IMG/VR virus record: IMGVR_UViG_3300034152_000551
Location: 1 to 20,013 of that record
Length of the DNA: 20,013 nucleotides
From: a virus
Strand: one strand, 5' to 3'
The notes under the pieces were generated by a model, which made no database searches, was not told the DNA's origin, and saw only the letters and a list, made by a program, of their open reading frames with translations. Shown here piece after piece: positions 786-17,900 of the stretch; position 1 is the first letter of the stretch; each line of letters starts with the position of its first letter. Position numbers and translations under genes: made by a program.

Positions 786-1466
786 ATGGCACGAAGACGA
801 CCGCGACCGCCCCGCTCGCGTAAGCCATACAAGGGAAACCGGACCCTGCTCAGAGTCCTGAAGAAGGGGCTTGACGTCACGCGCCGGGATCTTGCGCGCT
901 TTAAGCCGGATACTAAGGATTTGGTCATCGTGATGGCCCACCTCCGAGGATATTGCGACCCGTGCGGGGTCGAATCGTATGCGCGTAATCTGCTCGATGA
1001 TGAGGCGGATGACCCGATCCTGACCGAAGCAGACGTGCAGCGCCGGATGGAGGATCCGGTGCGTATGGCTTGGATCAGCGGCAAGCTGATGGAGAACCAG
1101 GAGATGCTCTGTGGCTACATGTGGGCCTCCGTCTTTCAGCGTGCCGTCCGTGGCAATGACCAGGCCGCCAAGCTCTGGGCACAGCGTTTTGATCCGGCCT
1201 TTCGTCCCACTAATAGGACAGAGACTGTCACCGCCAGCCTGGACGTCAGTATTGTGGACGACCATACCAGGCAGTCCATGCTCGAGCGTGAGCTGCGGCG
1301 CCTCTTTGGCACCCCGGCCGCTGCCGAAGCCAAGGTCATCGACGTGACCCCCCTGGAGAAGCATGAACCCAAAACTGCGCGAGACCCTGAGCAGCCTGAC
1401 GCCCGAGCAGGTGGCGGAGCTTCCACCCGACATTCAGGTGCAGGTCCTCAAGCTCCTGCAAGCTGA
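786..1466 (+). CDS. probable terminase small subunit
   Basis: This 226-residue protein precedes the large terminase and has the features expected of a DNA-recognition subunit. The N-terminus is very basic (RRRPRPPRSRKPYKG), the middle is helical, and the segment FQRAVRGNDQAAKLWAQRFDP resembles the end of the DNA-binding or oligomerisation part of many small terminases, where a GN-x-A-x-K-x-W pattern is common. It would bind the packaging site and load the large subunit. The start at 786 has CAGGAG 5-10 nt upstream, just after the tRNA. The last 35 codons (Gly/Ala/Pro-rich tail) are read in a different frame over the first 104 nt of the large subunit gene. The assignment rests on position and general character, so it is probable, not certain. 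Confidence 0.65.
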   Translation: MARRRPRPPRSRKPYKGNRTLLRVLKKGLDVTRRDLARFKPDTKDLVIVMAHLRGYCDPCGVESYARNLLDDEADDPILTEADVQRRMEDPVRMAWISGKLMENQEMLCGYMWASVFQRAVRGNDQAAKLWAQRFDPAFRPTNRTETVTASLDVSIVDDHTRQSMLERELRRLFGTPAAAEAKVIDVTPLEKHEPKTARDPEQPDARAGGGASTRHSGAGPQAPAS

Positions 1467-2958
1467 GAAGCAGCTGCGCCAGGAGTTCCCGCTCGCGCAC
1501 AACAAGCCTCATACCGTGCAGGAGAAGTTCCACACCAGCTCGGCGCGCGTGCGGCTGGTGACCGGCTCGAACCGCGTGGGTAAGTCTCACATGGGCGCGG
1601 CTGAGGCATATTCTCACAGCCTTGGGTATTATCCGTGGCTGGTTCCCGGGCTGAAGCTCAAGCGGTCTGGTGGCAGGGTTACTCTCCCCATGCGGGACGA
1701 GGTCCCCTCTTCAGCCTGGGTCCGGAACGACCAGGGTACGCCCATTGACGTACCCAACAAAGGTATCATCGTTACCGGGCTCGGTCTGCGTCAGGGAATT
1801 GGTGGGGTGGTGTGGCCAAAGTTCGTGGACTTCGCCCCGCGAGAGATGCCAATCAAGACTTGGAAAGGGCCCTGGGGCCTGCCCATGCGCGCAGAGTTTC
1901 CGAATGGCTCGATCATCACGTTTGCTTCTAAGGAGCAGGACGTCTTCACATTTGAAGGCGTTGACTTGGATTTTGCCTGGATCGACGAGCCCGTCCCGCT
2001 CCGGATCTGGAACGGCTTGTGGCGCGGACTGACCGACCGCAAGGGCCGGGCCTGGCTGACTATGACGCCACTCGGGGCCGACGCCCGCTGGGTCCACTAC
2101 GATCTGGTCATGGGCGAACGCGACGACGTCTTCGTGATCAGCGGCCATATCGACGACAATCCGTATCTGGACCCCGAGGCGCGCGAGGCCTTCAAGAACA
2201 ACGGGAGCTGGACAGAGCAGGAGCGGGCGGCGCGGGTCGAGGGGAAGTTCGAGTTCCACTCCGACCAGGTGCATGCGCTCTTCAACCGCGAGTTCCATGT
2301 CGTGGAGCCCTTCGCGATCCCGTCGGACTGGCTCCGCGGGCTGACGATCGACCCGCACACGCGGCGGCCGTGGTTCATTGCGTGGTGGGCGATGAGTCCG
2401 ATGAACGAGGTCTTCTTCTACAGGGAGTGGCCCCCGCAGGACTTCCACCGTGTGCGGACGTCGACGATGACGACGCCTGACTACGTGAACCTGATTAAGG
2501 CGATGGAGGGCAAGGAGCACATCATGTTCCGGTTCCTCGATCCCAATTTTGGCCGGGCTCCGGCGGTGCGGGTCGGCAATGAGATCAAGACGCTCGAGGA
2601 TGAGCTGCGCGAGTACGGCCTCGAGTTCTTCACCGATATTAACGACAAGCTCGAGTACGGGCACGCGGTCGTGAATGACGCCCTGCGCTGGGATCAGTCA
2701 CGGGCCTGGGCTCCGGATAATCGTCCCGGGGTTTACTTCTTTCAAAACTGTAAGAACCTGATCATGTCGATGGAGTCGTTTTGCTACATGCCGTACAAGA
2801 GCGACACCCGGCTACATGAGCTGGTGAGTGAAGAGTTCAAGGACGGCGCGGACGTTGTGCGCTACACGCTCGTCGCTCCCAAGGTAGTCCCATCAGATTC
2901 TGATTCGTATGTGTCAGAAGACGATTGGGAGTCATACAACGACCCAGATTGGACCTGA
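1363..2958 (+). CDS. terL: terminase large subunit (packaging ATPase and nuclease)
   Basis: This 531-residue motor protein pumps DNA into the prohead and cuts the concatemer. The ATPase part shows Walker A GSNRVGKS (residues 68-75), Walker B DFAWIDEP (about 203-210, catalytic Glu 209) and a coupling motif TMTPLG (about 233-238). The RNase H-like nuclease part shows acidic residues in the expected order: Asp330 in LTIDPHTRRPW, Asp393 in FRFLDPNFG, and Asp494 in EEFKDGADVV. Length is normal for the family. The ATG at 1363 has GGAG at 1355-1358; a later start would approach or remove the Walker A region, so the 104-nt overlap with the small subunit appears real. It is followed after 15 nt by small membrane-protein genes rather than by the portal, which is unusual. 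Confidence 0.95.
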   Translation: MNPKLRETLSSLTPEQVAELPPDIQVQVLKLLQAEKQLRQEFPLAHNKPHTVQEKFHTSSARVRLVTGSNRVGKSHMGAAEAYSHSLGYYPWLVPGLKLKRSGGRVTLPMRDEVPSSAWVRNDQGTPIDVPNKGIIVTGLGLRQGIGGVVWPKFVDFAPREMPIKTWKGPWGLPMRAEFPNGSIITFASKEQDVFTFEGVDLDFAWIDEPVPLRIWNGLWRGLTDRKGRAWLTMTPLGADARWVHYDLVMGERDDVFVISGHIDDNPYLDPEAREAFKNNGSWTEQERAARVEGKFEFHSDQVHALFNREFHVVEPFAIPSDWLRGLTIDPHTRRPWFIAWWAMSPMNEVFFYREWPPQDFHRVRTSTMTTPDYVNLIKAMEGKEHIMFRFLDPNFGRAPAVRVGNEIKTLEDELREYGLEFFTDINDKLEYGHAVVNDALRWDQSRAWAPDNRPGVYFFQNCKNLIMSMESFCYMPYKSDTRLHELVSEEFKDGADVVRYTLVAPKVVPSDSDSYVSEDDWESYNDPDWT

Positions 2959-5260: not shown

Positions 5261-5465
5261 TGACAATCTGACTCGATTGAAGAACGCGGAGAGCGCGGCT
5301 CTCGCTGACATCAACTTTGTTTGTGGGGGCCCGCTTCACCTCGAGTACCTGGACGCCCTAAACCGGGCAATCGCCGCTGGTGGCACGAACGACCAGAAGA
5401 ACCAGCAGGTCCAGGACCTTGCAGAGATGCTGTTTGTTAATCTCGAACTCGGAGGCCCGGTATGA
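5253..5465 (+). CDS. small hypothetical protein
   Basis: This 70-residue protein has a TTG start at 5253 with AGGTGG upstream (5241-5246), and it overlaps the end of the adhesin-like gene by 8 nt and the next start by 4 nt. The sequence is mostly helical (LTRLKNAESAALADI, HLEYLDALNRAIAAGG, QQVQDLAEMLFVNLEL) without membrane segments. It could be a small chaperone or structural accessory for the adjacent adhesin, but nothing in the sequence names it. Confidence 0.6.
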   Translation: MANDNLTRLKNAESAALADINFVCGGPLHLEYLDALNRAIAAGGTNDQKNQQVQDLAEMLFVNLELGGPV

Positions 5466-6208
5466 CGGAACCCTTCAACAAGATCGCCGCGCAGCTGCCG
5501 ACGCTGGGCGTGATCCTGAAGGTCCACCAGCGCACTGCTTCGCTCAACAAAGTCCTTGAGCAGCTGGCTACTTGGCCCGGCCGCCTGGTCAGCCGCATGC
5601 GCGTCGTCGTTCTGGAGGACAAGCTCGTCGCGCCAGCCGTGGACGATATCGTCATGGGCAGCGACATAGTGGACCAGGTGATCCGCCTGGACTACCAGGT
5701 CGTCGGGCCCGAGGGTGAGAAGTTCATGCAGGCCAGCAACGTCGGCCTGGCGGCAATAGAGTCCTTCAACCCGAACTGGATCTGGTACGCCGACGACGAC
5801 CGCTGGTTCGAGCCCGGCTACGAGAACGATGTGGCCGGCGCCCTGCTCAATCCTGATGTCGATGTCTGGAACATCCGGTCCATGTTTTTCTGGGAGGACC
5901 GGGGGATCCGCGAGGACTTCTTCAAGCATAACGCGCCGCTGCTCTGGCGCTGGCGGCCGGGCGCGCGGCTGGACCCGGCGCGGATGCTGGAGTGTCCGCC
6001 GGTCATATACGAAGCAGCAAAGGCCACTGGCCGCATGGGACAGCTTAGCTATAGACTACTTGACGTGGGGTACATTTCCTCCAAGGAGCGGCAGCGTGTG
6101 TTTGACGCTTACGCGCAAGCCGGGAAGATAGACTCGCTAACGACGTCGCTGCTGGACGAGAGTGTTCAGCTGCGCGCGTATGAGCATGGCGACCAGTGGA
6201 GACCGTGA
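5462..6208 (+). CDS. GT-A fold glycosyltransferase (family 2-like)
   Basis: This 248-residue protein has the shape of a short GT-A enzyme. The first strand and helix are LGVILKVHQRTASLNKVLEQL, the second strand is RMRVVVLEDK, and WIWYADDDRWFEPGYEND carries the D-x-D-like metal and nucleotide-sugar site (about residues 108-120). Hydrophobic and aromatic segments follow (DVWNIRSMFFWEDRG). It probably transfers a sugar from a nucleotide donor; acceptor and donor are unknown. ATG 5462 overlaps the previous stop (ATGA) with GGAGG at 5451-5455. Its own stop overlaps the portal ATG at 6208. Translational coupling to the portal suggests it is made with virion proteins and may act on one of them. Confidence 0.75.
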   Translation: MTEPFNKIAAQLPTLGVILKVHQRTASLNKVLEQLATWPGRLVSRMRVVVLEDKLVAPAVDDIVMGSDIVDQVIRLDYQVVGPEGEKFMQASNVGLAAIESFNPNWIWYADDDRWFEPGYENDVAGALLNPDVDVWNIRSMFFWEDRGIREDFFKHNAPLLWRWRPGARLDPARMLECPPVIYEAAKATGRMGQLSYRLLDVGYISSKERQRVFDAYAQAGKIDSLTTSLLDESVQLRAYEHGDQWRP

Positions 6209-8187
6209 TGCCGGCATCCAATCCTCTACACATCAATCTCTTCCAGGGGCTCAACGTAGATCCTGGCGCGATTGACGTGCTCAAGAAGAAGATCGACGAG
6301 GCGGACGAAGCTCGCCAGGAGTGGCTGCTTCGCACCGAGAAACTGACTCGCCAGCGGTTCGGCATCAAGGGCAACAAGAAGCGTACCGTGCCGTTCCCCG
6401 GGGCCAGCGACCTTCGCATCCCGACGCAGGACAAAGCGGTCCGGCGGTGGAAGCCGAAGATCGTCTCCCTGGTCTATGATGCCGACCCCGTGGCGTACTT
6501 CAAGGCCCAGGAGCCCAGTGACGTCGAGAGCGCCCGTGTGACGGAGCAGTTCTACGACTGGCTCTTCAAGATTGAGATGAGCGAAGCACTCTACGAGATC
6601 AATCTACTGGCTGATCTGATCGCCCACCGCGGGCTGGCCTACCTTCAGATCTCGTGGGACTACGCCACTGAGGACGAGACGCGGATGCTGTATCCGCGCC
6701 AGCTGTGGCCGGACGGCGTCCAGGACCTGGAGGACATTGAGCTTCTCCAGGACATCATCCATGAGTTCGACGTGTCCCCTGAAGAGCTGGACCCCGGGAT
6801 TATCGACGCGGTCCGCGGCGGCGCCGAGGGTATTGCGCTGTTTTTCCGGGCCGTCACGCGGAACCGACCGCGGATCACGGCGCGGGATCCCGCCCAGGTG
6901 ATCATGCCCCCGCGGGTGACGGACGTGGAGGCCTCGCCGTTCGTGTGTGTGCAGCACCAGTTCGACGAGGGGTTGCTCGACTGTTACGCCCGGGACGGTA
7001 TTTTCGACCCGGACGCGGTCGCGCTGATCAAGAGCAAGATACAGGGCACCGAGATGGGCGCCAATCTGGCCAGCTCTGGGCACGATATGCGGCAGCTTGA
7101 GCTGCGTTCACTGGACAAGAAGGAAGGAATCGAGGAGGGCAAGGAAGACCAAAAGCGCGTAGTGATGTGGGAGATCTTCACTTGGTCGGCAGCGCCGGAA
7201 CGCCGGCGGATCAAGTTGTGGGTTCACCCGAAGTCGAACACGGTTGCGGCAGCGATGCCGTATCCGTTCCCGTTCCATTCGTGGCCGCTGGTACTGTTCC
7301 AGCACGAGATCACGTACAGGCGACTGTACGCCTCACGTGGACTCACCAGGATGCTCTCACCGCTGGCTCGAGAGGTCGATCGGCTTCACAACGCGCGACT
7401 TGACGCGATCTCGATCCAGCTGGCTCCAGCGTTCAAGTACAGAGCCCCGGCCGGTGCGGCTCCGCGGACGTTCCGCTTCATGCCTGGGAAGATCTTCCCG
7501 GTCTCCCAGATGACCGATCTCGAGCCGCTCGTGTTCCCGACCAACAACCTACAGGCGTTTACGGCCGAGGAATACCAGACCAGGGCGCTCGTGGAGGATT
7601 ACGCTGGGCTTGCGGACACTGCCGTCATGAATCCCCTGAGGGCCCAGGAGCGCCGGACTGCCACGGAAATCGACTTCATCACAAACCAGATGCAGGGGGC
7701 CTTCGCACTGGACGCCAAGATTTTCCAGATGTCCATGCAGAAGGTTCACCAGATGGTCTGGGAGCTATGGTACGAGTTCGGCCCTGAGCAGGTATTCTTC
7801 CGGGTGGCCAACGAGGAGATGCCGCGGCCGTTCCTCAAGTCGGAGGTCTCGCGGCGCTACGACATTGTCCCGGCTGGTACCCCGGCGAACACCAATCGCC
7901 TGCTCGAACTCAACAAGGCGCGAGAGGCCATGCAGATCTTCATGCAGGACCAGTCGGGCCTGATTGACCGTGCGGAGCTATACCGCTACTACCTGGATCT
8001 ACTGGACTTCAACCTGGCCAAGCGGGTCCTGAACTCGCCGGAGAAGGCCTGGGAGATCCAGACCATGATGCAAGCCGCGGCCATGCTACAGCAGGGTAAC
8101 CTTGGTGATCTGATGATGTTTTCCAACGCGGCCAAGGCTGCTCAGGTACAAGGGAACGTGGTTCCCGGCAGCCCGCCGCTTGCGTAA
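6208..8187 (+). CDS. portal protein
   Basis: This 659-residue protein would form the dodecameric DNA channel at the capsid vertex. Supporting features are its size, its place between terminase and scaffold/capsid, an N-terminal region VPFPGASDLRIPTQD seen in head-tail connector proteins, and a segment around residues 482-489 (RRTATEID) followed by a long helical stretch, where a T-A-[TS]-E motif is typical of podovirus connectors. The tail is Gln/Ala-rich and helical, as in the portal barrel. ATG 6208 is preferred over GTG 6196 because GGAGA (6198-6202) is well spaced and it overlaps the upstream stop. No frameshift or missing part is seen. Confidence 0.85.
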   Translation: MPASNPLHINLFQGLNVDPGAIDVLKKKIDEADEARQEWLLRTEKLTRQRFGIKGNKKRTVPFPGASDLRIPTQDKAVRRWKPKIVSLVYDADPVAYFKAQEPSDVESARVTEQFYDWLFKIEMSEALYEINLLADLIAHRGLAYLQISWDYATEDETRMLYPRQLWPDGVQDLEDIELLQDIIHEFDVSPEELDPGIIDAVRGGAEGIALFFRAVTRNRPRITARDPAQVIMPPRVTDVEASPFVCVQHQFDEGLLDCYARDGIFDPDAVALIKSKIQGTEMGANLASSGHDMRQLELRSLDKKEGIEEGKEDQKRVVMWEIFTWSAAPERRRIKLWVHPKSNTVAAAMPYPFPFHSWPLVLFQHEITYRRLYASRGLTRMLSPLAREVDRLHNARLDAISIQLAPAFKYRAPAGAAPRTFRFMPGKIFPVSQMTDLEPLVFPTNNLQAFTAEEYQTRALVEDYAGLADTAVMNPLRAQERRTATEIDFITNQMQGAFALDAKIFQMSMQKVHQMVWELWYEFGPEQVFFRVANEEMPRPFLKSEVSRRYDIVPAGTPANTNRLLELNKAREAMQIFMQDQSGLIDRAELYRYYLDLLDFNLAKRVLNSPEKAWEIQTMMQAAAMLQQGNLGDLMMFSNAAKAAQVQGNVVPGSPPLA

Positions 8188-8195
8188 GGAGGCTT

Positions 8196-8543
8196 ATGCA
8201 GTACAGGCACGGAACACCGCTGGAACGTGAACTCCTCAGCCTGGAGCCGGAGAAACGAGCCGCCCGTCTCCAAGAAGTGTGGAAGGAGTTCCAAGGAACC
8301 CGAGCGTTCGATCTTCTGACCATCACTCTGCGCGACACAGAGTGGGAGGCTCTTCAGAGGATCCGGACCAATCCATTGAAGGAAGCTAAAGTCGCAGCTG
8401 TCATGATGCACGTGGTCAACCGTATCCGCCAACAGTTCGAGGCTCTGGGTCGCGGGGGTGAGGAGAATCCCTCGTCCGTCGAATGGCAAGACGACGTGGA
8501 GTTCTGGGACCTCGATGTGAACACAGGAGAAACGAATGCCTGA
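8196..8543 (+). CDS. small hypothetical protein between portal and scaffold
   Basis: This 115-residue protein has a very strong ribosome site AAGGAGG (8186-8192) before ATG 8196. It is helical and charged (ERELLSLEPEKRAARLQEVWKEFQ), with an acidic, Trp-rich C-terminus (SVEWQDDVEFWDLDVNTGE). The end overlaps the scaffold gene by 8 nt. Genes at this position in phages are often small internal or assembly proteins, but the family is not recognised, so the function is unknown. Confidence 0.75.
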   Translation: MQYRHGTPLERELLSLEPEKRAARLQEVWKEFQGTRAFDLLTITLRDTEWEALQRIRTNPLKEAKVAAVMMHVVNRIRQQFEALGRGGEENPSSVEWQDDVEFWDLDVNTGETNA

Positions 8544-9528
8544 TGACTACCCGAAAAAGGTAGATGACCAGTTCCCGGATATCCAGCCGGGTCCTCGGTC
8601 GCTGCAACCCACGGACGAGGCCGGACAGAACGTCAACGCCGTGTCACACTTTTCTGACTATGGTGAGGGCGCAACGGCCAAGCCCATTCCGGCTCACGAA
8701 GAGGCACGGATCCGCGAGGAACAGCTCCAGGCCCAGCAGGCCCAGGGGACCGCGGATCCGACAGTCCAGCCTCAGGATGACCGCGGCGGTGGGATCGCGG
8801 CGATGGAGAAGCGGATCAATCGGCTCTACGGGCAGTGGAAGACTGCCGAGGAGGGCAAGTCCGCCATGGAAGAGCGGTACGCCGCGCTTGAGCAGAAGTA
8901 CGAGGCCCTCGAAGCCCGTTTCTCTCAGGCCGCGCGTCCGCCGGTAGCCGGTACTCCGGCTCTGCCTCCGCAGAGTCAGGTCGGTTACCCCGGCTTCCAG
9001 GGCTACGGCCAGCCCCCCAACGCAGCTCCGGTGCCTCCAGCGGCTCCGCCGGCCGGCCCCAACAACGAGGTGATGAGTGCCATCCAAGCTCTCAACGAGC
9101 GGCTCGACCGCCGTGATCAGATGGAGGCCCTCGGCGCCCAGCAGGAGCAGGCGTATGCGGCGGCTGTCGCTGAGTTCCCCGAGCTGAAGGATCAGAACAG
9201 CGCTCTGGCTCATGCCGCAAGGCAGGTCTTCCAGCGCGACCCCAACTTCAGGCTGGATCCCCAGGGACCCTACAGGGCCGTTATCATGGCCCGCGGCCTC
9301 ATGGCTGATCGTGTCGCCAACGAGGCCGGACTGGAAACCGCACGCCGGGCGGCGGCAACGCCCCAGGCGACTGCGGTGGGCACTGAAGGAACCACATTAG
9401 CCCAAATCAAGTCGAAGTACGACGCAGTACTCGAGCGCATGCAGAGAGGGATCGGCAACTCGCACGAGAACTGGAAGGAGGCCCAGGGCCTCAAGCGCGA
9501 GTACCTCGCGAGAGGAGGGCGTCTGTAA
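8536..9528 (+). CDS. scaffold-like capsid assembly protein
   Basis: This 330-residue protein directly precedes the major capsid gene, the usual scaffold position. The N-terminus is polar and disordered. Residues about 85-135 form a heptad-like coiled coil (EKRINRLYGQWKTAEEGK, ERYAALEQKYEALEARF). Then comes a Pro/Ala/Gly linker (about 135-175), a second helical segment (SAIQALNERLDRRDQMEAL) and a C-terminal basic helical end. Such a mix of coiled coil and flexible linker fits scaffolds that fill the prohead and leave on packaging. No protease motif was seen. ATG 8536 has AGGAGA at 8525-8530. Identification is by position and composition. Confidence 0.7.
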   Translation: MPDDYPKKVDDQFPDIQPGPRSLQPTDEAGQNVNAVSHFSDYGEGATAKPIPAHEEARIREEQLQAQQAQGTADPTVQPQDDRGGGIAAMEKRINRLYGQWKTAEEGKSAMEERYAALEQKYEALEARFSQAARPPVAGTPALPPQSQVGYPGFQGYGQPPNAAPVPPAAPPAGPNNEVMSAIQALNERLDRRDQMEALGAQQEQAYAAAVAEFPELKDQNSALAHAARQVFQRDPNFRLDPQGPYRAVIMARGLMADRVANEAGLETARRAAATPQATAVGTEGTTLAQIKSKYDAVLERMQRGIGNSHENWKEAQGLKREYLARGGRL

Positions 9529-9567: not shown

Positions 9568-11107
9568 ATGGCGTACACTTCATGGCAGGAGTTCACGTCC
9601 GGCGGTCGGCCGCAGGGCGGAACCATCGTTAGATCCTTGACCACTATGATTGCGAAGTCGTAGTGAATCGCGCCTGTTCGGGGGAACGTAGCGCATGGAC
9701 TTCGAGAAAGAAATAGCCGCTGCCCAGTTGGCCAGTTTGGTGGATACCGACGGCTGTATTTCCTTCTGGCGTCGTACGCATCCTTATGGAGTATACATAG
9801 GGCCGCGCGTGACATTTGTCAATACAGACCGTCGTCTTGTAGAACACTTTGCCAAATTGTGCGACCGACTCGGCGTAAAACATTCGCCGGTACTGTACAA
9901 GGCCCCCAAAAATCCGGAGCGGCACAAACCAAAACTTGTCTTAAATGTCTCCAAGCGGCGGGAATTGAAGATATTTTTTGGTTTTGTGTTGCGTTACCTG
10001 GTCGGAAAGAGAAAGCAAGGGGCTTTTTTGAGTGCCATCTGTACGGCCAAGTGCCACAACAAACGGGGACAGCCCCCGTGGGTTGCTGTGTATGCTGATC
10101 GCATCAACGCACTCAACCGGCGCGGTCCGAAGACGCTACCAATCGCGAGCACGTCGGGTGGAACGACGTGTGTACAGACTGTACGGCGCGGATCTCGGCT
10201 ACAAGCGAGATCAAGAGACAGTCGAACTGCCTAAGCAACGGAGGATCTTCAGGATTACATTGCGAACGTCGCCCCGAAGGACGTTCCACTACTCGCCGGC
10301 CTTCGGCAGGTGCGGGTGGACACGGCCTACGTCGAGTGGCTCGAGGATGTTCTTCCCGGTCGGGGCCACAACGCCACGATCGAAGGCATCGCATACACCG
10401 AGTACGGAGTCTCGATGCCGATCCGGCGCTTCACGCATGTCCAGACGTTCTACAACAGTGGGGCGGTTTCGGACATCGAGCGCCAGGTCGAGCACGCGGG
10501 CTTCGAGGACGCGCTCTCCTACGCGGAGCAGAAGGCGTTCCTCGCCATGCGGAACGACATCGAGCACGCGCTCCATCGTGGCTCGGCGGCCACGGGTGCC
10601 ACGTCTGCGGCTCGCCAGTTCGCTGGCCTGCTCAACGTGATCACGACCAACGCGACGAATGGGTCCGGCCTGACGCTGACCGAGAGTGTGTTCAACGACA
10701 TGCTCGAGACAGTCTGGCAGTCCGGTGAGGTCTCGCCATCCGAGATCTTCGTGAACTCGCGTCTCAAGCGAACCATCTCCGGGTACACGACCAACGTCAC
10801 CCGGAACATCGACGCGGCTGACAAGCGTCAGGTCCTCGCGACCGACATGTACGATTCCGACTTCGGAACGCTGCGTGTCTACCTGTCGCGCGACCAGCTG
10901 CGTTCCGCTACCGTGACGGCTAAGGGCAACTCGATCGCCGCGATCGACCCGACCTACTTCGTCACGGGCTGGCTCCAGACGGCCCGGCGGGAGATCCTGC
11001 CGCGCGACGGTCTCCGCGACCGCTTCCAGATGAGTGCGTCCACGACCCTCATCGCGAAGACGGAAAAGGCGGGCGCCGTCATAAAGGACTGCGTGGCCAA
11101 CATCTGA
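9568..11107 (+). CDS. major capsid protein, DUF5309/SU10-like, split by a group I intron
   Basis: Exon 1 starts at ATG 9568 with AGGAG at 9557-9561 and reads MAYTSWQEFTSGGRPQGG plus a few residues, then hits a stop at 9661-9663 inside the intron. Exon 2 opens near 10235 and reads TEDLQDYIANVAPKDVPLLAG, then YVEWLEDVLPGRGHN, RRFTHVQTFYNSGAVSDIE and LAMRNDIEHALHRGSAA, and ends at 11107. This order (a D-L-x-D-Y-I start, W-x-E-D, the long R-N-D-I-E-x-A-L helix) matches the DUF5309/SU10-type capsid family. The joined protein would have about 313-320 residues. The product forms the icosahedral shell. A GTG at 10310 could only give a truncated protein. The exact splice junction is not settled. Position right after the scaffold supports the call. 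Confidence 0.85.
9670..9694 (+). promoter_or_regulatory. hairpin abutting the endonuclease start codon
   Basis: GCGC (9670-9673) and GCGC (9691-9694) enclose GTTC (9676-9679)/GAAC (9684-9687) with a GGGG loop. The only Shine-Dalgarno-like bases for the endonuclease (GGGGGAA, 9680-9686) lie in this structure, and the ATG follows at once. It could limit translation of the endonuclease, as is known for phage T4 intron endonucleases; for this gene it is inference. Confidence 0.45.
9695..10234 (+). CDS. LAGLIDADG homing endonuclease encoded in the intron
   Basis: This 179-residue protein has one LAGLIDADG motif near the N-terminus (LASLVDTDG, residues 12-20, with Asp19 in the catalytic position), followed by CISFWRR and VTFVNTDRRLVEHFAKLCDRLG, the typical beta strands and helix of the family. 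With a single motif it should act as a homodimer, cut the intronless capsid allele and spread the intron. The region from about residue 135 on is Arg-rich and lacks family character. It is read through the ribozyme core (Q to P7), and the stop TAA (10232-10234) lies just before exon 2 in the same frame as the capsid. It differs from neighbouring genes in being AT-richer, consistent with transfer. Confidence 0.88.
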   Translation: MDFEKEIAAAQLASLVDTDGCISFWRRTHPYGVYIGPRVTFVNTDRRLVEHFAKLCDRLGVKHSPVLYKAPKNPERHKPKLVLNVSKRRELKIFFGFVLRYLVGKRKQGAFLSAICTAKCHNKRGQPPWVAVYADRINALNRRGPKTLPIASTSGGTTCVQTVRRGSRLQARSRDSRTA

Positions 11108-11118
11108 GCGTAGGACGA

Positions 11119-11150
11119 CGGGGGAGCGGGAGTAGCGTCCCGTTCCCCCG
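11119..11150 (+). terminator. strong hairpin after the capsid gene
   Basis: A 13-pair stem (11119-11131 with 11138-11150, one G-T pair) closes on a 6-nt loop 11 nt after the capsid stop. It is very GC-rich, but no T run follows, so it may be a weak or factor-assisted terminator, or a 3' stability element protecting the abundant capsid mRNA while allowing some read-through to the modification genes. Confidence 0.6.
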
Positions 11151-11180
11151 CCTGTCCGTTACTAAGGAATTAGAGATCAA

Positions 11181-11555
11181 ATGGCACGGCAAGTACAGTT
11201 CGGATCAAGAGAGGAAAAACGCCGCTTCCTCGAAGAAGTCTGTTCTGCCTTCGAGAAGGTCTGCCCCGACATGATAACCTTTATCACTCAGGTCATCGAC
11301 GACAACCGGAAGAAGCTCCGGGCGCCGGATGCCTTCAGTGCGTCGGGGCGTGTGCGTTTCAAGACGTCACTGCCATTCCACTTTCAAATGTTTGTGGAAC
11401 AGCAGGCGCGTAAACGTGGTTTGGTTGGCCCGAAGGACAAGCCCTTCCTGGCCGAGCACGACAACATGCAGCTTCTCTTCCAGATCTGGCCGGACATTGA
11501 GGTTGGCAAGGGAACGAAGAAGTTCATGGTAGACATAAAGAAGAAGGAGAACTGA
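11181..11555 (+). CDS. hypothetical protein upstream of the modification genes
   Basis: This 124-residue protein is charged, soluble and mixed helix/strand, with no signal peptide and no motif I recognise. The N-terminal half is helical (REEKRRFLEEVCSAFEKVC, FITQVIDDNRKKLR). The second half has LPFHFQMFVEQQARKRGL and ends in a lysine-rich tail (GTKKFMVDIKKKEN). AAGGA lies upstream at 11164-11168, a little far from ATG 11181. Its stop is 4 nt from the next start, so it is likely co-expressed with the glycosyltransferase and radical SAM genes. It could be a partner or a virion part; there is no direct evidence. Confidence 0.75.
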   Translation: MARQVQFGSREEKRRFLEEVCSAFEKVCPDMITFITQVIDDNRKKLRAPDAFSASGRVRFKTSLPFHFQMFVEQQARKRGLVGPKDKPFLAEHDNMQLLFQIWPDIEVGKGTKKFMVDIKKKEN

Positions 11556-11559
11556 GAGT

Positions 11560-14124
11560 ATGTCGAAGAGAGCACGGAACAAGAAGAAGTCTCCCCGCCA
11601 GGAGCAGATTGAGAAAATCAAGATCGAGACGCCGATCAGCGTCTGTATCATTATGAAGAACTGCGCCAAGCAGACCCTCAACCTGCTCAAGAGTCTGCGG
11701 CCCATCCTGGTTCACCCCATGGATGAGGTCGTGATTGTGGACACCGGCTCGACCGATGGTACGCCGAAGAAGGTGATGACCAAGGGCGTCCGGCACGTCC
11801 CGAGCCTCCGGGTTATTGAGCGCCCGGACCTGAACAGTACGGAGCTGGTCGCGAAGCTGAAGGTCTGGAAGCCGGCGCTCTTTCAGAAGTTCGGCGGATC
11901 CAAGACCTTCAAGAAGGGAATCATCCGCTCGTTTGCGGAGGCCCGGCAGATCAGCTTCGACGCAGCCCGGAACGACGTCTGCATGTGGCTGGATACCGAC
12001 GATGTCATCACGGGCACCGACGGCTTCCGCGCTCTCGTGCAGCGGTACCTGTCGGCTGGACCTGAGAACAATGCTTTCTTCATGCCGTACAACTACGCAC
12101 AGGATCCTGAGGACCTGGCTTGCACCACCGTCCTGTGGCGCGAGCGCGTGATCGACCGGCGTAAGTATCGCTGGGCCGGCCGCTGTCACGAGGTCCTGAT
12201 CCCGCGCGTCGAGGGGTACATGGGTAACCCCGGTCTGTGCGGCGAGAGGGACATTACGATCCACCACGTCCACGGTATGCGGCATGCCCACGAGATTTCG
12301 GATCTGCGGAACTACGCGATCCTCCGGGATGAGTTCGAGCGCTGTAAGGCGTCCGGTGAGTGGATCGATCCGCGGACTCTGTTCTATCTGGGCAACGCCT
12401 GCCGGGGTCTGGGGGAATACGAGGAGGCAATCCGGCTGTACGACGAGTTCGAGCCCCTGAGTGGGAACCCGGACGACCGTGTGCTGGCGTGCCTCTACCG
12501 GGCCAACATCTATCAGGAGCTAAAGCGCCCGTGGCGCTCCCTGCACCTGCTGAACCAGGCCGAGATGATCAACCCCGAGGACCCGCGGCCGAGCCTGGGG
12601 AAGGCGCAGTGCTACTTCATCATAAAGAAGTACAAGCTGGCCATCCACCACGCACAGCGGGCGATCGAAATGGGTAGGGAATTCAAGAGCTTCAACTCTA
12701 TGAACCCTGTCCAGGTCGACTATCTGCCGTGGCACCTGACGGCCATCGCGGCGAAGGAACTGAATGACGTACAAACGGCTCTTCAGGCGGCGGAGCAGTT
12801 GGTGCGGTGCCGGCCGGACGTCCGAATGTCCCAGGGCACCCGCGCGGCCCTTCAGGATTGGGCCAATCGGAAGAACCGAGCAGAGTCAATCAAGGGCGTG
12901 ATCTCTCTGCTGAACTCGAAGATCCACCAGCGGAACGCCCTAATCAACATGGAGGGACTCGACAATTTGGAGGAGTTCGGCCTGGCCAAGCCGGAAGTGA
13001 CGGTCTCTGACTCGAAGCAGAAGAAGCCCACGGTCGCCATGTTCTGTGGTGGCAGCTGGGAGGACTGGGGCCCGAAGTCGCCGGACGGGATCGGCGGCTC
13101 TGAGCAGATGGTCCGGGACCTCGTGCCCGAGCTGGCCAAACTGGGCCTCGACATCACGGTCTATGCACCCGTGCCGAAGGAGGAGCGCAGAGTCCACAAG
13201 GGCGTCACGTGGCGCCACCACCTCGAGTTCAACGACAGTCTGCCCCGGGACTACCTGGTCGGATGGCGGCACGCGCAGATCCTCCAGTTCCCGGTGCCGG
13301 CCAAGAAGCGGTACCTTTGGTTACACGACATCGGCGGCAATCAGATCTGGAAGGACCCGGCGATCAAGGCGCTCTGCTCGAAGGCGATCTTCCTGAGCCC
13401 GTGGCACAGGGAGTTCAACAGCGAGTGCCCTGACTCGAAGTGCTTCGTCTCCAGAAACTCAATCGACGTGCCCCTGATCGAGCGCGTTGAGAAGGACGAG
13501 AAGCTGCCCCCCCGGAACCCGCTGCGCTTCGTCTACAGCAGCTCCCCCGACCGCCAGCTGCACTACGTCCTCGCGGCGTGGGAGCGGGCGATGGAGAGGG
13601 GGATCCTGCCGGAAGAGGCCGAGCTGGTGATCATGTACGGGTTCAACGCCGTCTACATGGGGATGGCGGACCGGGCCCCGTACATCAATGTCTTCGGCAA
13701 GGAGCGAAGCAGGATGGACTACATGGAGGACCTCCTGTCCTGGATCGACCGGCTGCCGAACGTGGTATACGGCGGGCGAATGCCGAAGGCTGCGGTTCTG
13801 GGCTCCTTCTTGTCGTCAGGCGCCATGCTCTACACGCCCGACTTCACCGAGACGTTCTGCATCTCGGCGGCCGAGGCTCAGGCGTGCGGGTGTGTGCCGC
13901 TGACCAACGACTGTGCGGCGCTGGCCACGACGAACCGCTACGGGGTGCAGGTGCCTCGGACCGGTAATGCGGACGGCGCGTACCATCTTCTGTGCGACTA
14001 CCTCGCCAACCACGAAAAAGAGTGGAGGGATGGAGCGAGACAGGTCATGGAGAAGAATGCTCGCGAGGTCTTTTCGACAGAGGCGCTCGCGAAGGAGTGG
14101 AAGGAGGCGCTATTCGATGAGTAA
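11560..14124 (+). CDS. double glycosyltransferase: GT2, TPR and GT4 (GT-B) domains fused
   Basis: At 854 residues this is the largest protein in the window. Residues about 25-250 form a GT2 (GT-A) domain with VDTGSTDGT (60-68), the D-x-D site LDTDD (144-148) and WAGRCHEVL (about 205-213), the His-Glu pattern of GT2 enzymes that carry TPR repeats. Residues about 273-425 contain TPR-like helices (LFYLGNACRGLGEYEEAIRL, CLYRANIYQELKRPWRSL). Residues about 488-850 form a GT-B enzyme of the GT4 type, with GIGGSEQMVRDLV near its start and an E-x7-E pair, E764 and E772, in ETFCISAAEAQACGC. Two different sugars could be added in sequence. GT2-TPR enzymes such as SunS glycosylate peptides, but other acceptors are known. 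AAGGAGA precedes ATG 11560. The gene overlaps the radical SAM gene by 8 nt. Confidence 0.88.
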   Translation: MSKRARNKKKSPRQEQIEKIKIETPISVCIIMKNCAKQTLNLLKSLRPILVHPMDEVVIVDTGSTDGTPKKVMTKGVRHVPSLRVIERPDLNSTELVAKLKVWKPALFQKFGGSKTFKKGIIRSFAEARQISFDAARNDVCMWLDTDDVITGTDGFRALVQRYLSAGPENNAFFMPYNYAQDPEDLACTTVLWRERVIDRRKYRWAGRCHEVLIPRVEGYMGNPGLCGERDITIHHVHGMRHAHEISDLRNYAILRDEFERCKASGEWIDPRTLFYLGNACRGLGEYEEAIRLYDEFEPLSGNPDDRVLACLYRANIYQELKRPWRSLHLLNQAEMINPEDPRPSLGKAQCYFIIKKYKLAIHHAQRAIEMGREFKSFNSMNPVQVDYLPWHLTAIAAKELNDVQTALQAAEQLVRCRPDVRMSQGTRAALQDWANRKNRAESIKGVISLLNSKIHQRNALINMEGLDNLEEFGLAKPEVTVSDSKQKKPTVAMFCGGSWEDWGPKSPDGIGGSEQMVRDLVPELAKLGLDITVYAPVPKEERRVHKGVTWRHHLEFNDSLPRDYLVGWRHAQILQFPVPAKKRYLWLHDIGGNQIWKDPAIKALCSKAIFLSPWHREFNSECPDSKCFVSRNSIDVPLIERVEKDEKLPPRNPLRFVYSSSPDRQLHYVLAAWERAMERGILPEEAELVIMYGFNAVYMGMADRAPYINVFGKERSRMDYMEDLLSWIDRLPNVVYGGRMPKAAVLGSFLSSGAMLYTPDFTETFCISAAEAQACGCVPLTNDCAALATTNRYGVQVPRTGNADGAYHLLCDYLANHEKEWRDGARQVMEKNAREVFSTEALAKEWKEALFDE

Positions 14125-15169
14125 GCGAGCGGCGTACTCCGGATGGAAGCTGGCGTGGCTGCCGCACCATCTTCAGAGGCTGCGCGCGGATAGGCTCTGC
14201 TCGCCCGCGCACGTGCAGCTACACCTGACTGGTGCGTGCCAGATGTCCTGCAAGTGGTGTACTTACAACGGGGCCGTGCCACGACTGTCGCGGCCCAACA
14301 AGAAGATCCTCAGGGACGACGCGGTGAAGTTCCTCCTCGACTTCTTCACAACGGGGGGCCGGGCGGTCGAGTTCACCGGTGGGGGCGAGCCGACGTGCCA
14401 TCCTCACCACCTCGAGATTATCCGCTTTGCCATGAGCCTGGGACTCGACATCGCGTTAATTACTAACGGGCTCGTGCCCAAGCCGGCGGAGCTGATCCGC
14501 CTGATCCCGGACTTCAAGTGGCTGCGGGTGTCCCTGGATGCCTCGACGCCGGAAGAGTTCAAGGCGCGCAAGGGAGTCGACGGATTCGACAAGGTAACGG
14601 CGTTCATCTCCCTGGCGGCCCGGACTGCCAAGCGGAACGGCAACTGCCACGTTGGTGTCTCGTATCTTATTGACGAAAACACCACGACAGAGGAAATTCG
14701 CCGGGCGGTTGAGCTGTGTAGGGGGCTTGGAGCCCACTCACTCCGGTTCGCTCCTATCTATAAGGAGAGCGCGCCGACCAAGATCGCCCGGGCAACGCAG
14801 GAGGAACTCGAGGCGCTGACGGTCGAGGACTTCCTGGTCATCAACATGACGGAGCAGAGACTCGAGGACATTGAGGCCGCGAAGAAGCACCCGTGCCGAA
14901 CCTGCGGCTACATGTACACCAGCCTCGTCGTGGGCTGTGACTCAAAGGTCTACCCGTGCTGCTTCCAGGTCTACTCGGAGGAGCATAAGATCGCGGACCT
15001 GACCCAGGAGCGGTTCAAGGACTGGTGGTTCAGTGACCGGCGGAAGAAGCTCGTCGACAGCTGGCGGCGCAATGTGCGCTGCGACGGTGTGGCGTGCTGG
15101 CACCGCGAGAAGAACGATCTGTTCTACAAACTGGTAGAGGAGCCTCCAGATGACCTCTTCTTCATCTGA
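14117..15169 (+). CDS. radical SAM protein with SPASM-like C-terminal domain
   Basis: This 350-residue enzyme has the radical SAM signature C-x3-C-x2-C (Cys41, Cys45, Cys48 in CQMSCKWC) and the SAM-binding GGGEPTCHP (88-96). A second set of cysteines follows: Cys260, Cys263, Cys274, Cys281/282 in VYPCC, Cys322 and Cys327. This is the pattern of a SPASM domain that binds auxiliary iron-sulfur clusters and is common in peptide-modifying and some sugar-modifying enzymes. It would cleave SAM and make a radical on an unknown substrate. The ATG at 14117 has AAGGAGG at 14101-14107. An in-frame extension upstream to 13913 is a shadow over the glycosyltransferase. The 8-nt overlap suggests joint production with that enzyme. 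Confidence 0.9.
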   Translation: MSKRAAYSGWKLAWLPHHLQRLRADRLCSPAHVQLHLTGACQMSCKWCTYNGAVPRLSRPNKKILRDDAVKFLLDFFTTGGRAVEFTGGGEPTCHPHHLEIIRFAMSLGLDIALITNGLVPKPAELIRLIPDFKWLRVSLDASTPEEFKARKGVDGFDKVTAFISLAARTAKRNGNCHVGVSYLIDENTTTEEIRRAVELCRGLGAHSLRFAPIYKESAPTKIARATQEELEALTVEDFLVINMTEQRLEDIEAAKKHPCRTCGYMYTSLVVGCDSKVYPCCFQVYSEEHKIADLTQERFKDWWFSDRRKKLVDSWRRNVRCDGVACWHREKNDLFYKLVEEPPDDLFFI

Positions 15170-15208
15170 GCGTCCGACCGACAACAGTTCTTCGTGAGGT
15201 GAGTTTTA

Positions 15209-15278
15209 GGGGGTCTCGGAGCGGAGGCGGCGGCCGAGCCGAGCGTAAGTGGTTTCCGTGCGCCAGCCCCCTCTTTTT
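15209..15278 (+). terminator. possible GC-rich stem followed by a T run in the 119-nt gap
   Basis: The gap 15170-15288 between the radical SAM and adaptor genes holds GGGGG (15209-15213), which could pair with CCCCC (15267-15271), followed by TCTTTTT (15272-15278). Between them CTCGG and CCGAG copies allow inner stems. The T run touches the adaptor ribosome site GGAG. It looks like a weak terminator or attenuator, but the outer stem is short and the loop large. I see no convincing promoter here. Confidence 0.3.
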
Positions 15279-15288
15279 GGAGATAGCC

Positions 15289-16245
15289 ATGGCGCTTGGC
15301 AGAACGTTCAAAGAACTACAGAACGAAGTGGGCCGGTACGTGGGACGTCCGGGTTCCAACTACCTCGAGAAGCTGAAGGACTGGATCAACGACGGAGTCC
15401 AGGACTACACCCGCCAGCTTGCTTCGCCCTGGACCAGGCGCCGCCGCCGCTTCCTGTCCAATGGCGAGCAGGGCTTTGGCTGTCCCCAGGACGTGGACAT
15501 GCCGGTGTGGATTCTGAACGTGACGGACAAAGTACCGGTCGACCCTGGGATCCAGTGGGACCGGGTCTATCCCGAATCAATGTCTGGCAAGATCCAGGGC
15601 GTGCCGTGGGAGTGGCAGCCTGACGGGGTCTACCCGGTCATCGAGCAGCCCGGCGGCGGCGTCTACCTGACGGCCGAGACCAGGACCGGCGTCGAGGACA
15701 ACGTCTTTGTGACGGGTGAGATCCAGGACACCGGAAGCTCGGGCATGTCGTCCGAGTACCTGCGCACGCAGGACACCGTGTACTGTACCGAAGCATCGAT
15801 CCTCACCCTGGCGACCCCGTTCGTGACGATCACCGGGATCAGCCGGGACACCAACAGCGACGAGCCGTGCATCATTCGCCGGGCAGATACGGGCAAGGCC
15901 ATCGCGATCATCGAGCGGGGCGAGCGGGTCCCGCAGTACACCTGGGTTCGGTTCATGTACAAGCCGCCGGCCGGGAACATCTTCGAGATGAGCTACGTCC
16001 CCCGGGTGCCGCGGCTAATCCAGGACCAGGATCCGATCCCCGGATTCGTGGACCCGAGCTTCGTCAAGTGGTACGCCGCTGAGGTGGCGTGCCGCGACAT
16101 GGGCATGGCCTCCAAGGCGCAGTATGCGGCCCGGAAGGCGGAGGAGGCGATCCTCGAGGAGCGGCAGAAGCAGCTCAACTTTGGCGACAACATGTGGCAG
16201 GCGATGCCCTACGACGATGAGTGGAACCTGGAGGGAGTGGACTAA
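15289..16245 (+). CDS. probable head-tail adaptor protein
   Basis: The ATG at 15289 has GGAG at 15279-15282 and gives 318 residues; the upstream in-frame start at 15199 covers Gly/Arg-rich non-coding sequence and is rejected. The N-terminus (ALGRTFKELQNEVGRY, LEKLKDWINDGVQDYTRQL) has the pattern of adaptor proteins that bind the portal: a helix, a variable turn, then a W-I-N-[DE] helix. The middle is beta-rich (VWILNVTDKV, GVYLTAETRTG, FVTITGISRD), perhaps an inserted domain. The C-terminus returns to helices (FVKWYAAEVACRDMGMA, ARKAEEAILEERQKQL). Its stop overlaps the next ATG (TAATG). The role follows from motif resemblance and gene order. Confidence 0.65.
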   Translation: MALGRTFKELQNEVGRYVGRPGSNYLEKLKDWINDGVQDYTRQLASPWTRRRRRFLSNGEQGFGCPQDVDMPVWILNVTDKVPVDPGIQWDRVYPESMSGKIQGVPWEWQPDGVYPVIEQPGGGVYLTAETRTGVEDNVFVTGEIQDTGSSGMSSEYLRTQDTVYCTEASILTLATPFVTITGISRDTNSDEPCIIRRADTGKAIAIIERGERVPQYTWVRFMYKPPAGNIFEMSYVPRVPRLIQDQDPIPGFVDPSFVKWYAAEVACRDMGMASKAQYAARKAEEAILEERQKQLNFGDNMWQAMPYDDEWNLEGVD

Positions 16246-17900
16246 TGCCGCAGTACCAGCGAATCACCGACTTCTCGGGCGGCCAGAACGAGAGGGACGA
16301 CCTCTCGGCGGTCGAGCCGAACGTCGGCGAGCTGGTCCAGAATGCCTTCATGGACAGGCAGGGCCGGCTCGACACTCGCTGGGGTGTGGATCCGTTCGGC
16401 GGGGGCGGGGCCACTCCTGGCGGTCTCGGTGTGTTTGATCCTCCGGGCGTCGACAAGCGCCTGATTGGGATTTGGCCGCCTTACATCTACCATTCGACAG
16501 CCAATGAGTCCTGGAACCAGGCGGCCAGTGGGGCCTCGCTGGTCAACGGACTCCATAAGGTCGTGACCGGACACGATGCCGACAGCAAGTGGTTTAGCTT
16601 CGTACACAGCGTCGAGGGCTACGAGGCCACCGGCGATTCGTACCCCGCCTCGGGCCTGACCTGGTTCAGCCCCGAGGAGGGCTCCTACTCGCAGATGGCA
16701 GAGTTCCGGCCCAACGTCCTGACCTTCTGGCAGGGGCGTATGTGGGCGGCCGACTCGACCGCGACCAACTACGAGGGCGACCACCTGTTCTGGTCGAAGA
16801 TCCTCGACGCGACGACCTGGTCGCTCCCCGGGCAGAACATCCGGGTCGACCCGGCACAGGGCGGCCGGATCACGGCGCTGATCCCGGCTCGTGGCAACAC
16901 GCCCCAAATGTACGTCTTCAAGGACAACGCCATCTACCTGTTTGAGGTGGTGTGGGGCACCGACGGCTACGTGCCGCTGACGGCAAACGACCTTGACACG
17001 ACGAAGGCCATCGTGCGGCCAATCTCGAAGGACGTGGGGTGTGTTGCCCCTGCTTCGGCCCTGTGGGTGCCCAGCTCTCGCGGCGCCGACATCTGGTTCC
17101 TGGCGGCGGACGGCTTCCGCTCCCTCAAGCGAACCCAGGATGACGTGGCGAGCGGTGCTGCTGGGCCCCCGCTGTCGGAGACGATTCCGACGACGGTGGG
17201 CCGGATCAACTACAGCTACGCGCGACGGACGTGGGCGACGGCCTTCGAGAACTACGTGCTCTTTGCCGTGCCGCTGGATGGGGCGAAGCACCCCACCCAC
17301 ATGGTGGTGAAGAACGTCCTGGCCCCTGACGATAAGGGCTGGGGCCTCTGGGATCTTCAGGCGGCAGCACTGGCGACTGTGGATCTGCCCAACCGGCGGC
17401 TCTTCATGCAGTGCTCGACCAGCTACTCAGCGGCTCTGGCGGCCGGTGACACCCTGGCAGCTCACGTCTACGAGCTGTCGGACTCCGTCGACATCCAGAA
17501 CCCGGGCGAGGCCTGGATCGAGAAGAAGTACGACACGCGCGAGTTCGACCTCGAGGCGCCGCTGCGGAGGAAGCGGGCCCTGTGGTGCGAGGTTCAGTAC
17601 AACACGAATAGCGACACCGGCGCGACGGTGACGATCGACTACCGATTAGACTCCACGGCGACGTGGCAGAACCTCGGCTACTTCTACGCCGAGCCGTCGC
17701 CGGAATACCCGACAATCCCGGCACTACTGCCGCTGACGTTTGACACGGAGTCGCCGATTCACTCGAAGAACCTTGACATGGACCAGCTCAATGCGGCCTA
17801 CCGCGTGCAGCTTCGACTGTACGATACGGGGCCGGGCAAGGCTGTGTACCGCAAGGTCGAGATTGTGGGCAACGTACTACCGAAGGAGTGGAGCGAATGA
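16245..17900 (+). CDS. virion protein, probable stopper or tail hub (gp10-like)
   Basis: This 551-residue protein starts at ATG 16245 with GGAGGGAG at 16230-16237. The opening YQRITDFSGGQNERDDL, then NVGELVQNAFMDRQGRLDTRWGV, is the standard start of phage proteins that follow the adaptor, where F-x-G-G, a conserved N-A and G-x-L-x-x-R-x-G recur. The remainder is rich in Trp and beta strands in repeated blades (YVFKDNAIYLFEVVWG, ADIWFLAADGFRSLKR, RTWATAFENYVLFAVPLD), consistent with a beta-propeller like that of P22 gp10 that plugs the portal after packaging. It overlaps the next gene by 4 nt. The precise role is inferred. Confidence 0.65.
   Translation: MPQYQRITDFSGGQNERDDLSAVEPNVGELVQNAFMDRQGRLDTRWGVDPFGGGGATPGGLGVFDPPGVDKRLIGIWPPYIYHSTANESWNQAASGASLVNGLHKVVTGHDADSKWFSFVHSVEGYEATGDSYPASGLTWFSPEEGSYSQMAEFRPNVLTFWQGRMWAADSTATNYEGDHLFWSKILDATTWSLPGQNIRVDPAQGGRITALIPARGNTPQMYVFKDNAIYLFEVVWGTDGYVPLTANDLDTTKAIVRPISKDVGCVAPASALWVPSSRGADIWFLAADGFRSLKRTQDDVASGAAGPPLSETIPTTVGRINYSYARRTWATAFENYVLFAVPLDGAKHPTHMVVKNVLAPDDKGWGLWDLQAAALATVDLPNRRLFMQCSTSYSAALAAGDTLAAHVYELSDSVDIQNPGEAWIEKKYDTREFDLEAPLRRKRALWCEVQYNTNSDTGATVTIDYRLDSTATWQNLGYFYAEPSPEYPTIPALLPLTFDTESPIHSKNLDMDQLNAAYRVQLRLYDTGPGKAVYRKVEIVGNVLPKEWSE

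Follow-up and report, generated by a model that had tools for sequence, protein, structure and literature searches.

The modification cassette

A two-gene cassette lies inside the virion operon of a 20,013-bp record of an uncultured virus (IMG/VR record IMGVR_UViG_3300034152_000551), which was analysed at its full length and is called the window here. The virus is a podovirus with an SU10-type head and neck, an assignment made because of the gene order and the protein families of the operon: SU10_portal, SU10_MCP and SU10_adaptor all score over their Pfam cut-offs. The first gene of the cassette encodes an 854-residue glycosyltransferase (GT) in which two different folds, GT2 and GT4, are fused around tetratricopeptide repeats (TPR), and the second encodes a radical S-adenosylmethionine enzyme (rSAM) (Table 1). 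An original prediction, made from the sequence alone, had described this fusion, its 8-nt overlap with the rSAM gene and the position of both genes between those for capsid and adaptor. The coordinates and the overlap proved exact, and the flanking genes are recognised by the SU10_MCP and SU10_adaptor profiles (E 3e-46 and 2e-7, rounded). The overlap of stop and start codons suggests that the two genes may be translationally coupled. The GT gene has a GC content of 0.618, and its GC and third-position GC (GC3) resemble those of the adjoining structural genes. Neither protein shows a hydrophobic segment of membrane-anchor grade (maximum 19-residue mean 1.07 in the GT and 1.46 in the rSAM).

The glycosyltransferase fusion

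The fusion protein consists of a GT-A/GT2 domain (residues ~25-240), a TPR region (~243-465), a linker and a GT-B/GT4 domain (489-854), so that both predicted folds and the repeats are recovered by Pfam and an AlphaFold model (pLDDT 86) together. Glycos_transf_2 (residues 27-71, E 2e-8) and TPR_1/TPR_2 exceed their Pfam cut-offs; the GT4 matches are sub-threshold, and residues 489-854 of the model adopt the GT-B/GT4 fold (Z 31 to 6kih). The N-terminal half of the model resembles SunS and ThuS (Foldseek E 3e-13). A profile built from 21 relatives finds GmaR (6.5e-36), SunS (1.6e-29) and ThuS (1e-22) as its best GT2 matches of known structure, which upholds the predicted tie of the GT2-TPR half to peptide-modifying enzymes. 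Across these relatives W143-x-D145-x-D147-D148 and H210-E211 of the GT2 domain are invariant, and a DXD-type motif followed by TPR-like helices is the architecture of the GT2-TPR polypeptide glycosyltransferases represented by GmaR and SunS. The C-terminal half combines the GT-B fold with an EX7E motif (E764-X7-E772 in the window), as expected of retaining GT4 enzymes; GGSE and the first glutamate of this motif are invariant in the same relatives.

The radical SAM enzyme and its relatives

Both Radical_SAM (PF04055, E 2e-12) and SPASM (PF13186, E 8e-7, residues 263-322) match the second protein over their Pfam cut-offs. The CX3CX2C motif (C41, C45, C48) and GGGEP are invariant in 25 relatives, as expected of the radical SAM superfamily, and so are four auxiliary cysteines (C263, C281, C322, C327), bacterial relatives included. 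The cluster motif had been predicted correctly, together with a full SPASM-like cysteine set that did not stand. Such a set comprises seven cysteines, CX9-15GX4C-gap-CX2CX5CX3C-gap-C, for two auxiliary clusters; here the second cluster motif is missing and only CX4C follows C322. The pattern fits a single auxiliary four-cysteine site of the twitch type, a putative cluster-binding site.

The AlphaFold model of the rSAM (pLDDT 85, pTM 0.88) matches SkfB, DesII, SuiB and BlsE at tied Z scores of 23-24.5 (DesII 24.1, BlsE 23.2), followed by viperins (~18) and BtrN (17.5). Since peptide and sugar enzymes tie, the fold comparison (Foldseek, VIA-align) cannot decide between their substrates. The best PDB profile match of the family is the sugar-nucleoside decarboxylase BlsE (E 1.5e-19).

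Relatives of the rSAM were collected from an IMG/VR scan (217 found, 80 kept) and a genome scan (292 found, 80 kept). A FastTree phylogeny of 88 representatives places the rSAM of the window within a clade of 17 (support 0.75 untrimmed, 0.85 trimmed) that is drawn entirely from virus contigs and whose members usually adjoin a GT gene; the bacterial relatives that were kept all lie outside it. Many of the bacterial genes adjoin E1-type thiamine pyrophosphate enzymes, epimerases, DegT aminotransferases and C-methyltransferases, that is, sugar-biosynthesis clusters; these neighbour labels come from profiles seeded from few sequences, with the E1 pair confirmed by Pfam on one example. In a viral relative (L113; L-numbers label the records and loci compared in this analysis) a second radical SAM open reading frame (ORF) at 11723-13147 carries its CX3CX2C motif as CNAKCPWC, followed by an intein-start-like sequence (AVAGTMIAVENGFKPIEDIRVGD), which suggests that an intein interrupts the cluster motif at its third cysteine.

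The structural ties to SkfB and SuiB (Z 23-24.5) would suit two separate activities, the GT glycosylating a virion protein and the rSAM modifying virion-protein side chains, by cross-link, epimerisation or thioether, instead of a sugar. NCBIfam matches of the rSAM likewise include peptide maturases, all far below cut-off. By contrast, no domain resembling a RiPP recognition element (RRE; RiPP, ribosomally synthesised and post-translationally modified peptide) is seen in the ~30 residues ahead of the barrel, where helices span 3-23 and the first barrel strand 32-35. Moreover, the bacterial relatives associate with sugar genes, and the phage relatives adjoin GT genes in at least eight representatives, which makes this division of labour rather unlikely.

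The phage-made peptide that the original prediction had offered beside a virion protein as the modified molecule fares far worse. It would imply a phage-encoded, glycocin-like RiPP system with the GT2-TPR half acting as SunS and the rSAM as peptide maturase, and it draws on SunS and ThuS, which rank among the nearest relatives of known structure for the GT2 half, and on the prophage origin of SunS. The gaps at 11108-11180 and 15171-15288, however, hold no coding-strand precursor ORF of at least 20 aa, bar the adaptor and a frame inside it, and no leader peptidase or transporter is recognised among the ORFs of the window. The rSAM has no RRE and its kin accompany sugar genes, and the 124-aa gene ahead of the cassette is a conserved head/neck gene. 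Such a system is the least probable of all those considered, and the class of SuiB/SkfB-type RiPP maturases, with an RRE and an adjacent precursor, was rejected for the rSAM.

Phage glycosyltransferases can glucosylate DNA, and viperins occur both among the structural matches and among the below-cut-off NCBIfam matches; the GT might in that case act on modified bases, or the rSAM on nucleotides in the manner of viperin. This role is very improbable given the location in the virion operon, the TPR-GT architecture and a viperin NCBIfam match of 55 bits against a cut-off of 180. Viperins, furthermore, are not known to have an auxiliary cysteine cluster.

The glycosyltransferase gene in related phages

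Scans of IMG/VR for close relatives with each single protein returned no matches, and alignments were required. Three Manatee Spring podovirus records hold full-length homologues of the GT (26-29% identity, 98% coverage), each right behind the capsid gene and a small ORF. A wider IMG/VR scan for GT relatives yielded 51 further loci, with SU10_MCP over cut-off in 23 of the 47 records tested. Positions were tabulated for 33 SU10-type records that hold both genes; the duplicate contigs L005 and L223 were excluded and a few near-identical contigs (L027, L029, L030) are included. In 26 of these a related GT gene follows the capsid gene at a distance of 0.26-1.73 kb (25 of the GT2-TPR type and one TPR-GT variant), and in two at 5.7-6.0 kb. 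The variant belongs to the SU10-like L130, where the slot behind the capsid gene (7128-8474) is filled, in place of the GT2-TPR-GT4 fusion, by a 448-aa protein of TPR and a C-terminal GT-like part, with a layout like that of FlmG.

A further scan was seeded with the capsid protein in place of the GT. All 11 near capsid relatives (41-56% identity; L028, L218-L227) have a GT gene downstream of the capsid gene, and the 39 distant ones (L228-L266, partly on short contigs) showed none, which makes the fusion typical of its lineage. Behind it the ORFs vary, and comprise GT2, GT4, methyltransferases, UDP-sugar dehydrogenase-, epimerase- or LicD-like genes, several of them named by eye from sequence without a profile, or nothing at all. 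The GT fusion is therefore the lineage gene, and the rSAM the variable part of the cassette. In L004 (3472-7791; also L022, L024, L031) the fusion gene is split into GT2-TPR-GT4N and GT4C pieces, and in L004 a GroEL-like gene and small ORFs stand between them.

Glycosyltransferase and radical SAM genes in virion operons

The recurrence of the gene pair in other phages is established in part. A fixed pair of GT fusion and rSAM in SU10-like phages was rejected: among the 47 records, which came mainly through GT relatives, Radical_SAM was found in five, and none of these five has an SU10 capsid gene. The pairing holds instead at the level of a GT plus an rSAM in a virion operon. Starting from the rSAM, the Pfam GT2 domain exceeds its cut-off in 20 of 26 virus records with an rSAM relative and in 0 of 14 control SU10-type records without one; homology guided the choice of these records, which are not entirely independent, and the contrast is therefore descriptive. 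A GT gene overlaps or directly adjoins the rSAM gene in the window and in L058, L059, L060, L066, L070, L113 and L135.

Several loci with a GT and an rSAM are of other capsid types. In L063 the order is terminase, portal, head protease, HK97 major head protein, a sialyltransferase-family gene (phrog_4603), two ORFs, rSAM, GT2 and tape measure, and in L065 an HK97 portal, capsid and gp6-type connector precede GT-like genes with an rSAM, so that both cassettes lie between HK97 head genes and tail genes. L135 has an rSAM-GT2 pair followed by a tail terminator and a major tail protein. The L077 group (48 contigs with at least 80% rSAM identity) has its cassette behind a P22-type coat gene and ahead of tail-like genes, in the order lambda-type portal, P22-type coat, small ORF, GT2, heptosyltransferase-like ORF, E1-beta, rSAM, E1-alpha and tail-like genes; its rSAM belongs to an E1-associated branch outside the clade of the window. 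In the SU10-like L091 and L130 the rSAM stands between GT genes and adaptor/stabilisation genes. Because GT and rSAM meet in SU10-like, HK97-type and P22-coat virion operons, the theme has come together on more than one occasion where head and tail genes meet, and its recurrence in many phage records places the arrangement beyond chance.

The order E1-beta, rSAM, E1-alpha is shared by the L077 group, whose phages are small and have the P22-type coat, and by the 735-kb phage record of a megaphage (L006). Both modules adjoin a heptosyltransferase-like ORF and glycan genes, and similar modules occur in bacterial sugar clusters.

The polysaccharide-type clusters around the bacterial rSAM relatives also admit a role at the host surface, in which the cassette would alter the lipopolysaccharide, capsule or teichoic acid of infected cells, so as to exclude superinfecting phages or to release progeny, and the rSAM would make an unusual nucleotide sugar. 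Marine phage surveys have taken similar GT and radical SAM genes as changing the O-antigen or surface (PMC7029224, PMC7150976), and the L003 cassette includes a NodB-like deacetylase. Against this stand the location deep in the head-neck operon of several unrelated phages, the polypeptide glycosyltransferases as closest relatives of the GT2-TPR half, and the window cassette itself, in which no membrane anchor, flippase or undecaprenyl-linked enzyme is found. Genes for surface conversion, besides, are usually early or lysogenic. Host-surface remodelling is accordingly an unlikely explanation, and still the most serious competitor.

Proposed function

The reading that we prefer, with a probability of roughly 0.5, is that the cassette places a modified glycan on a virion protein in the cytoplasm, the likeliest acceptor being the major capsid protein (MCP) or another abundant head/neck protein. 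It rests on gene content, active-site residues, folds, the position by the capsid gene and the recurrence of GT with rSAM. The original prediction is thereby retained as to a modification cassette of the virion operon, with modification of a protein as its probable purpose.

We infer late expression, in which the cassette would be transcribed and translated together with the virion operon. The TPR superhelix of the GT would recognise the virion polypeptide, and its GT2 domain would attach the first sugar, as GmaR does on flagellin and SunS on sublancin. The fused GT4 domain would then add a second sugar, both being donated by cytoplasmic nucleotide sugars of the host. The rSAM, if translationally coupled to the GT, would make a radical change on a nucleotide sugar or on the attached glycan, which might be a dehydrogenation, deoxygenation, epimerisation or C-C bond formation. 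Elsewhere in the group, the accessory slot that the rSAM takes up here is filled by further GTs, methyltransferases or epimerase-like genes.

A number of points weigh against this proposal. For none of the members has a glycan, mass shift or substrate been reported, and all relatives with the full fusion are uncultured. In five of the 33 SU10-type records the GT gene lies upstream of the portal gene and not beside the capsid gene. The rSAM is dispensable, because the closest capsid relatives (L225, L219-L221) lack it; its fold matches the peptide maturases SkfB and SuiB as well as the sugar enzymes DesII and BlsE, and support for its all-viral clade is moderate, with an uncertain place of the window inside. 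In most relatives a lysine replaces the second glutamate of the GT4 EX7E motif, and some of them may thus have an altered GT4 half. Finally, lipids, polysaccharides and small molecules are likewise substrates of enzymes with GT2-TPR and GT4 folds.

A broader proposal, which we put forward tentatively, is that several unrelated phage lineages independently carry a coupled GT and rSAM in their head-tail operons and build a radical-modified sugar onto the particle. If true, the radical SAM enzymes concerned would make up a phage-specific subfamily that serves to decorate particles, and theirs would be, to judge from the literature found, the first radical SAM chemistry on or for a virion. Particles of common environmental phage lineages would bear glycans from dedicated, operon-embedded enzymes, which bears on how they meet surfaces, proteases or immune factors. 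It would also bear on how the many GT and radical SAM genes of marine viromes are interpreted, which at present count as genes for modifying the host surface or DNA.

The virion operon and its other elements

The genes around the cassette are given in Table 1.

Table 1. Genes and features of the virion operon in the window
Feature	Position	Strand	Evidence
Terminase gene	1363-2958		
Portal gene	6196-8187		PF23899 (SU10_portal), over cut-off
Scaffold-like gene	8536-9528		
Probable N-terminal exon of the major capsid protein (MAYTSWQEFTSGGRPQGGTIV)	9568..9630	+	Comparison with L225 MCP MALLTWQEFTAAARPQGGSI
Major capsid protein, C-terminal exon (SU10_MCP)	10241..11107	+	PF17236, E 2.8e-46
124-aa small head/neck protein gene	11181..11555	+	Iterated profile
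GT2-TPR-GT4 fusion glycosyltransferase, 854 aa	11560..14124	+	Pfam, AlphaFold model, profiles, invariant motifs
Overlap of GT stop and rSAM start, 8 nt, ATGAGTAA	14117..14124	+	Sequence
Radical SAM enzyme, 350 aa, ATG at 14117	14117..15169	+	Pfam, invariant Cys, AlphaFold model
SU10-type adaptor gene, downstream boundary of the cassette	~15289..16245	+	PF24175, E 1.7e-7
Nozzle/stabilisation-like gene	16221-17900		

The small protein of 124 residues directly ahead of the GT gene had been singled out as a possible conserved neighbour of the cassette, a role that the comparison takes away. A profile seeded from small ORFs of other SU10-type phages matches it at E 1.5e-6 before inclusion (163-sequence set), which is moderate evidence because the database is small. 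The same family takes in phages whose GT is located elsewhere (L004, L022, L024, L031), and the gene is therefore a core head/neck gene and not specific to the cassette. The protein could still be a substrate of the modification.

The capsid gene of the window is split (9568-10240) by an insert of ~600 bp that bears a LAGLIDADG ORF (9695-10234). The mechanical ORF start of the downstream part is at 10310, and similarity to relatives begins at ~10241 (EDLQDYIANV...). An intron is favoured over an intein because stops stand in frame; an Rfam search gave no known intron family at E 0.1 or better. Another LAGLIDADG-like ORF adjoins the capsid gene of a near relative (L218, 10048-10620), which suggests that this gene is a repeated target of homing elements within the group of the window and L218.

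Two further genes of the window were named by eye. A 137-aa ORF (291-704), upstream of a tRNA-Glu gene (695-769), looks like a GIY-YIG endonuclease. The gene immediately ahead of the portal gene (5462-6208, 248 aa) has an invariant DDD motif and appears GT-A-like, an assignment left unconfirmed by Pfam, PDB profile and hhalign; it is conserved in the near relatives L225 and L218, and in L219 and L220 by position and alignment.

Comparison with known systems

The original prediction had named no described system with this arrangement, and none was found here either, the novelty claim being limited to the searchable literature because that literature is partial. Neither GT2-TPR-GT4 fusions next to SU10-type capsid genes nor glycan cassettes of a virion operon with a radical SAM enzyme are described in it; on the latter, it offered only general auxiliary-gene reports.

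Phage SU10 (Kuravirus) has the same order as the window, with capsid, small protein and adaptor; its capsid protein (gp9), a possible minor capsid protein (gp10) and its adaptor (gp11) bear consecutive numbers (PMC9509320). Unlike the window, this numbering leaves no room for modification genes between gp10 and gp11, and the GT and rSAM genes of the window thus fill the place of the gp10-gp11 gap.

Virion glycosylation by phage-encoded GTs, as proposed here for the cassette, is reported for mycobacteriophages (Freeman et al. 2023, Cell Host Microbe 31:1216, as cited in PMC11256854, PMC10955285). In mycobacteriophage Maravista the GTs are annotated near the 3' end of the genome, and not by the capsid gene as in the window (PMC11256854); the parts of these two citing papers that were available mention neither a GT2-TPR-GT4 fusion nor a radical SAM partner (PMC11256854, PMC10955285).

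The rSAM is likened to radical SAM enzymes of sugar chemistry, namely BlsE (a cytosylglucuronate decarboxylase), DesII (a sugar deaminase) and BtrN (a twitch-type aminoglycoside enzyme), with identities of 13-19%, at which substrates are not transferable by homology. The S-glycosyltransferases SunS and ThuS of the glycocins share with the GT a GT2 fold and a helical, TPR-like region; they differ in taking a bacteriocin peptide as acceptor and in having no GT4 half, and the window shows no precursor gene.

The organisation of the GT is also like that of two cytoplasmic TPR-GT enzymes that act on a polymeric structural protein. GmaR of Listeria combines GT2 and TPR and glycosylates flagellin, a self-assembling structural protein (PMC9638930), and FlmG combines TPR with a GT-B domain and glycosylates flagellins in Caulobacter (PMC7591256). 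Each has one GT domain and no radical SAM partner, whereas the enzyme of the window fuses GT2 and GT4 around the TPR.

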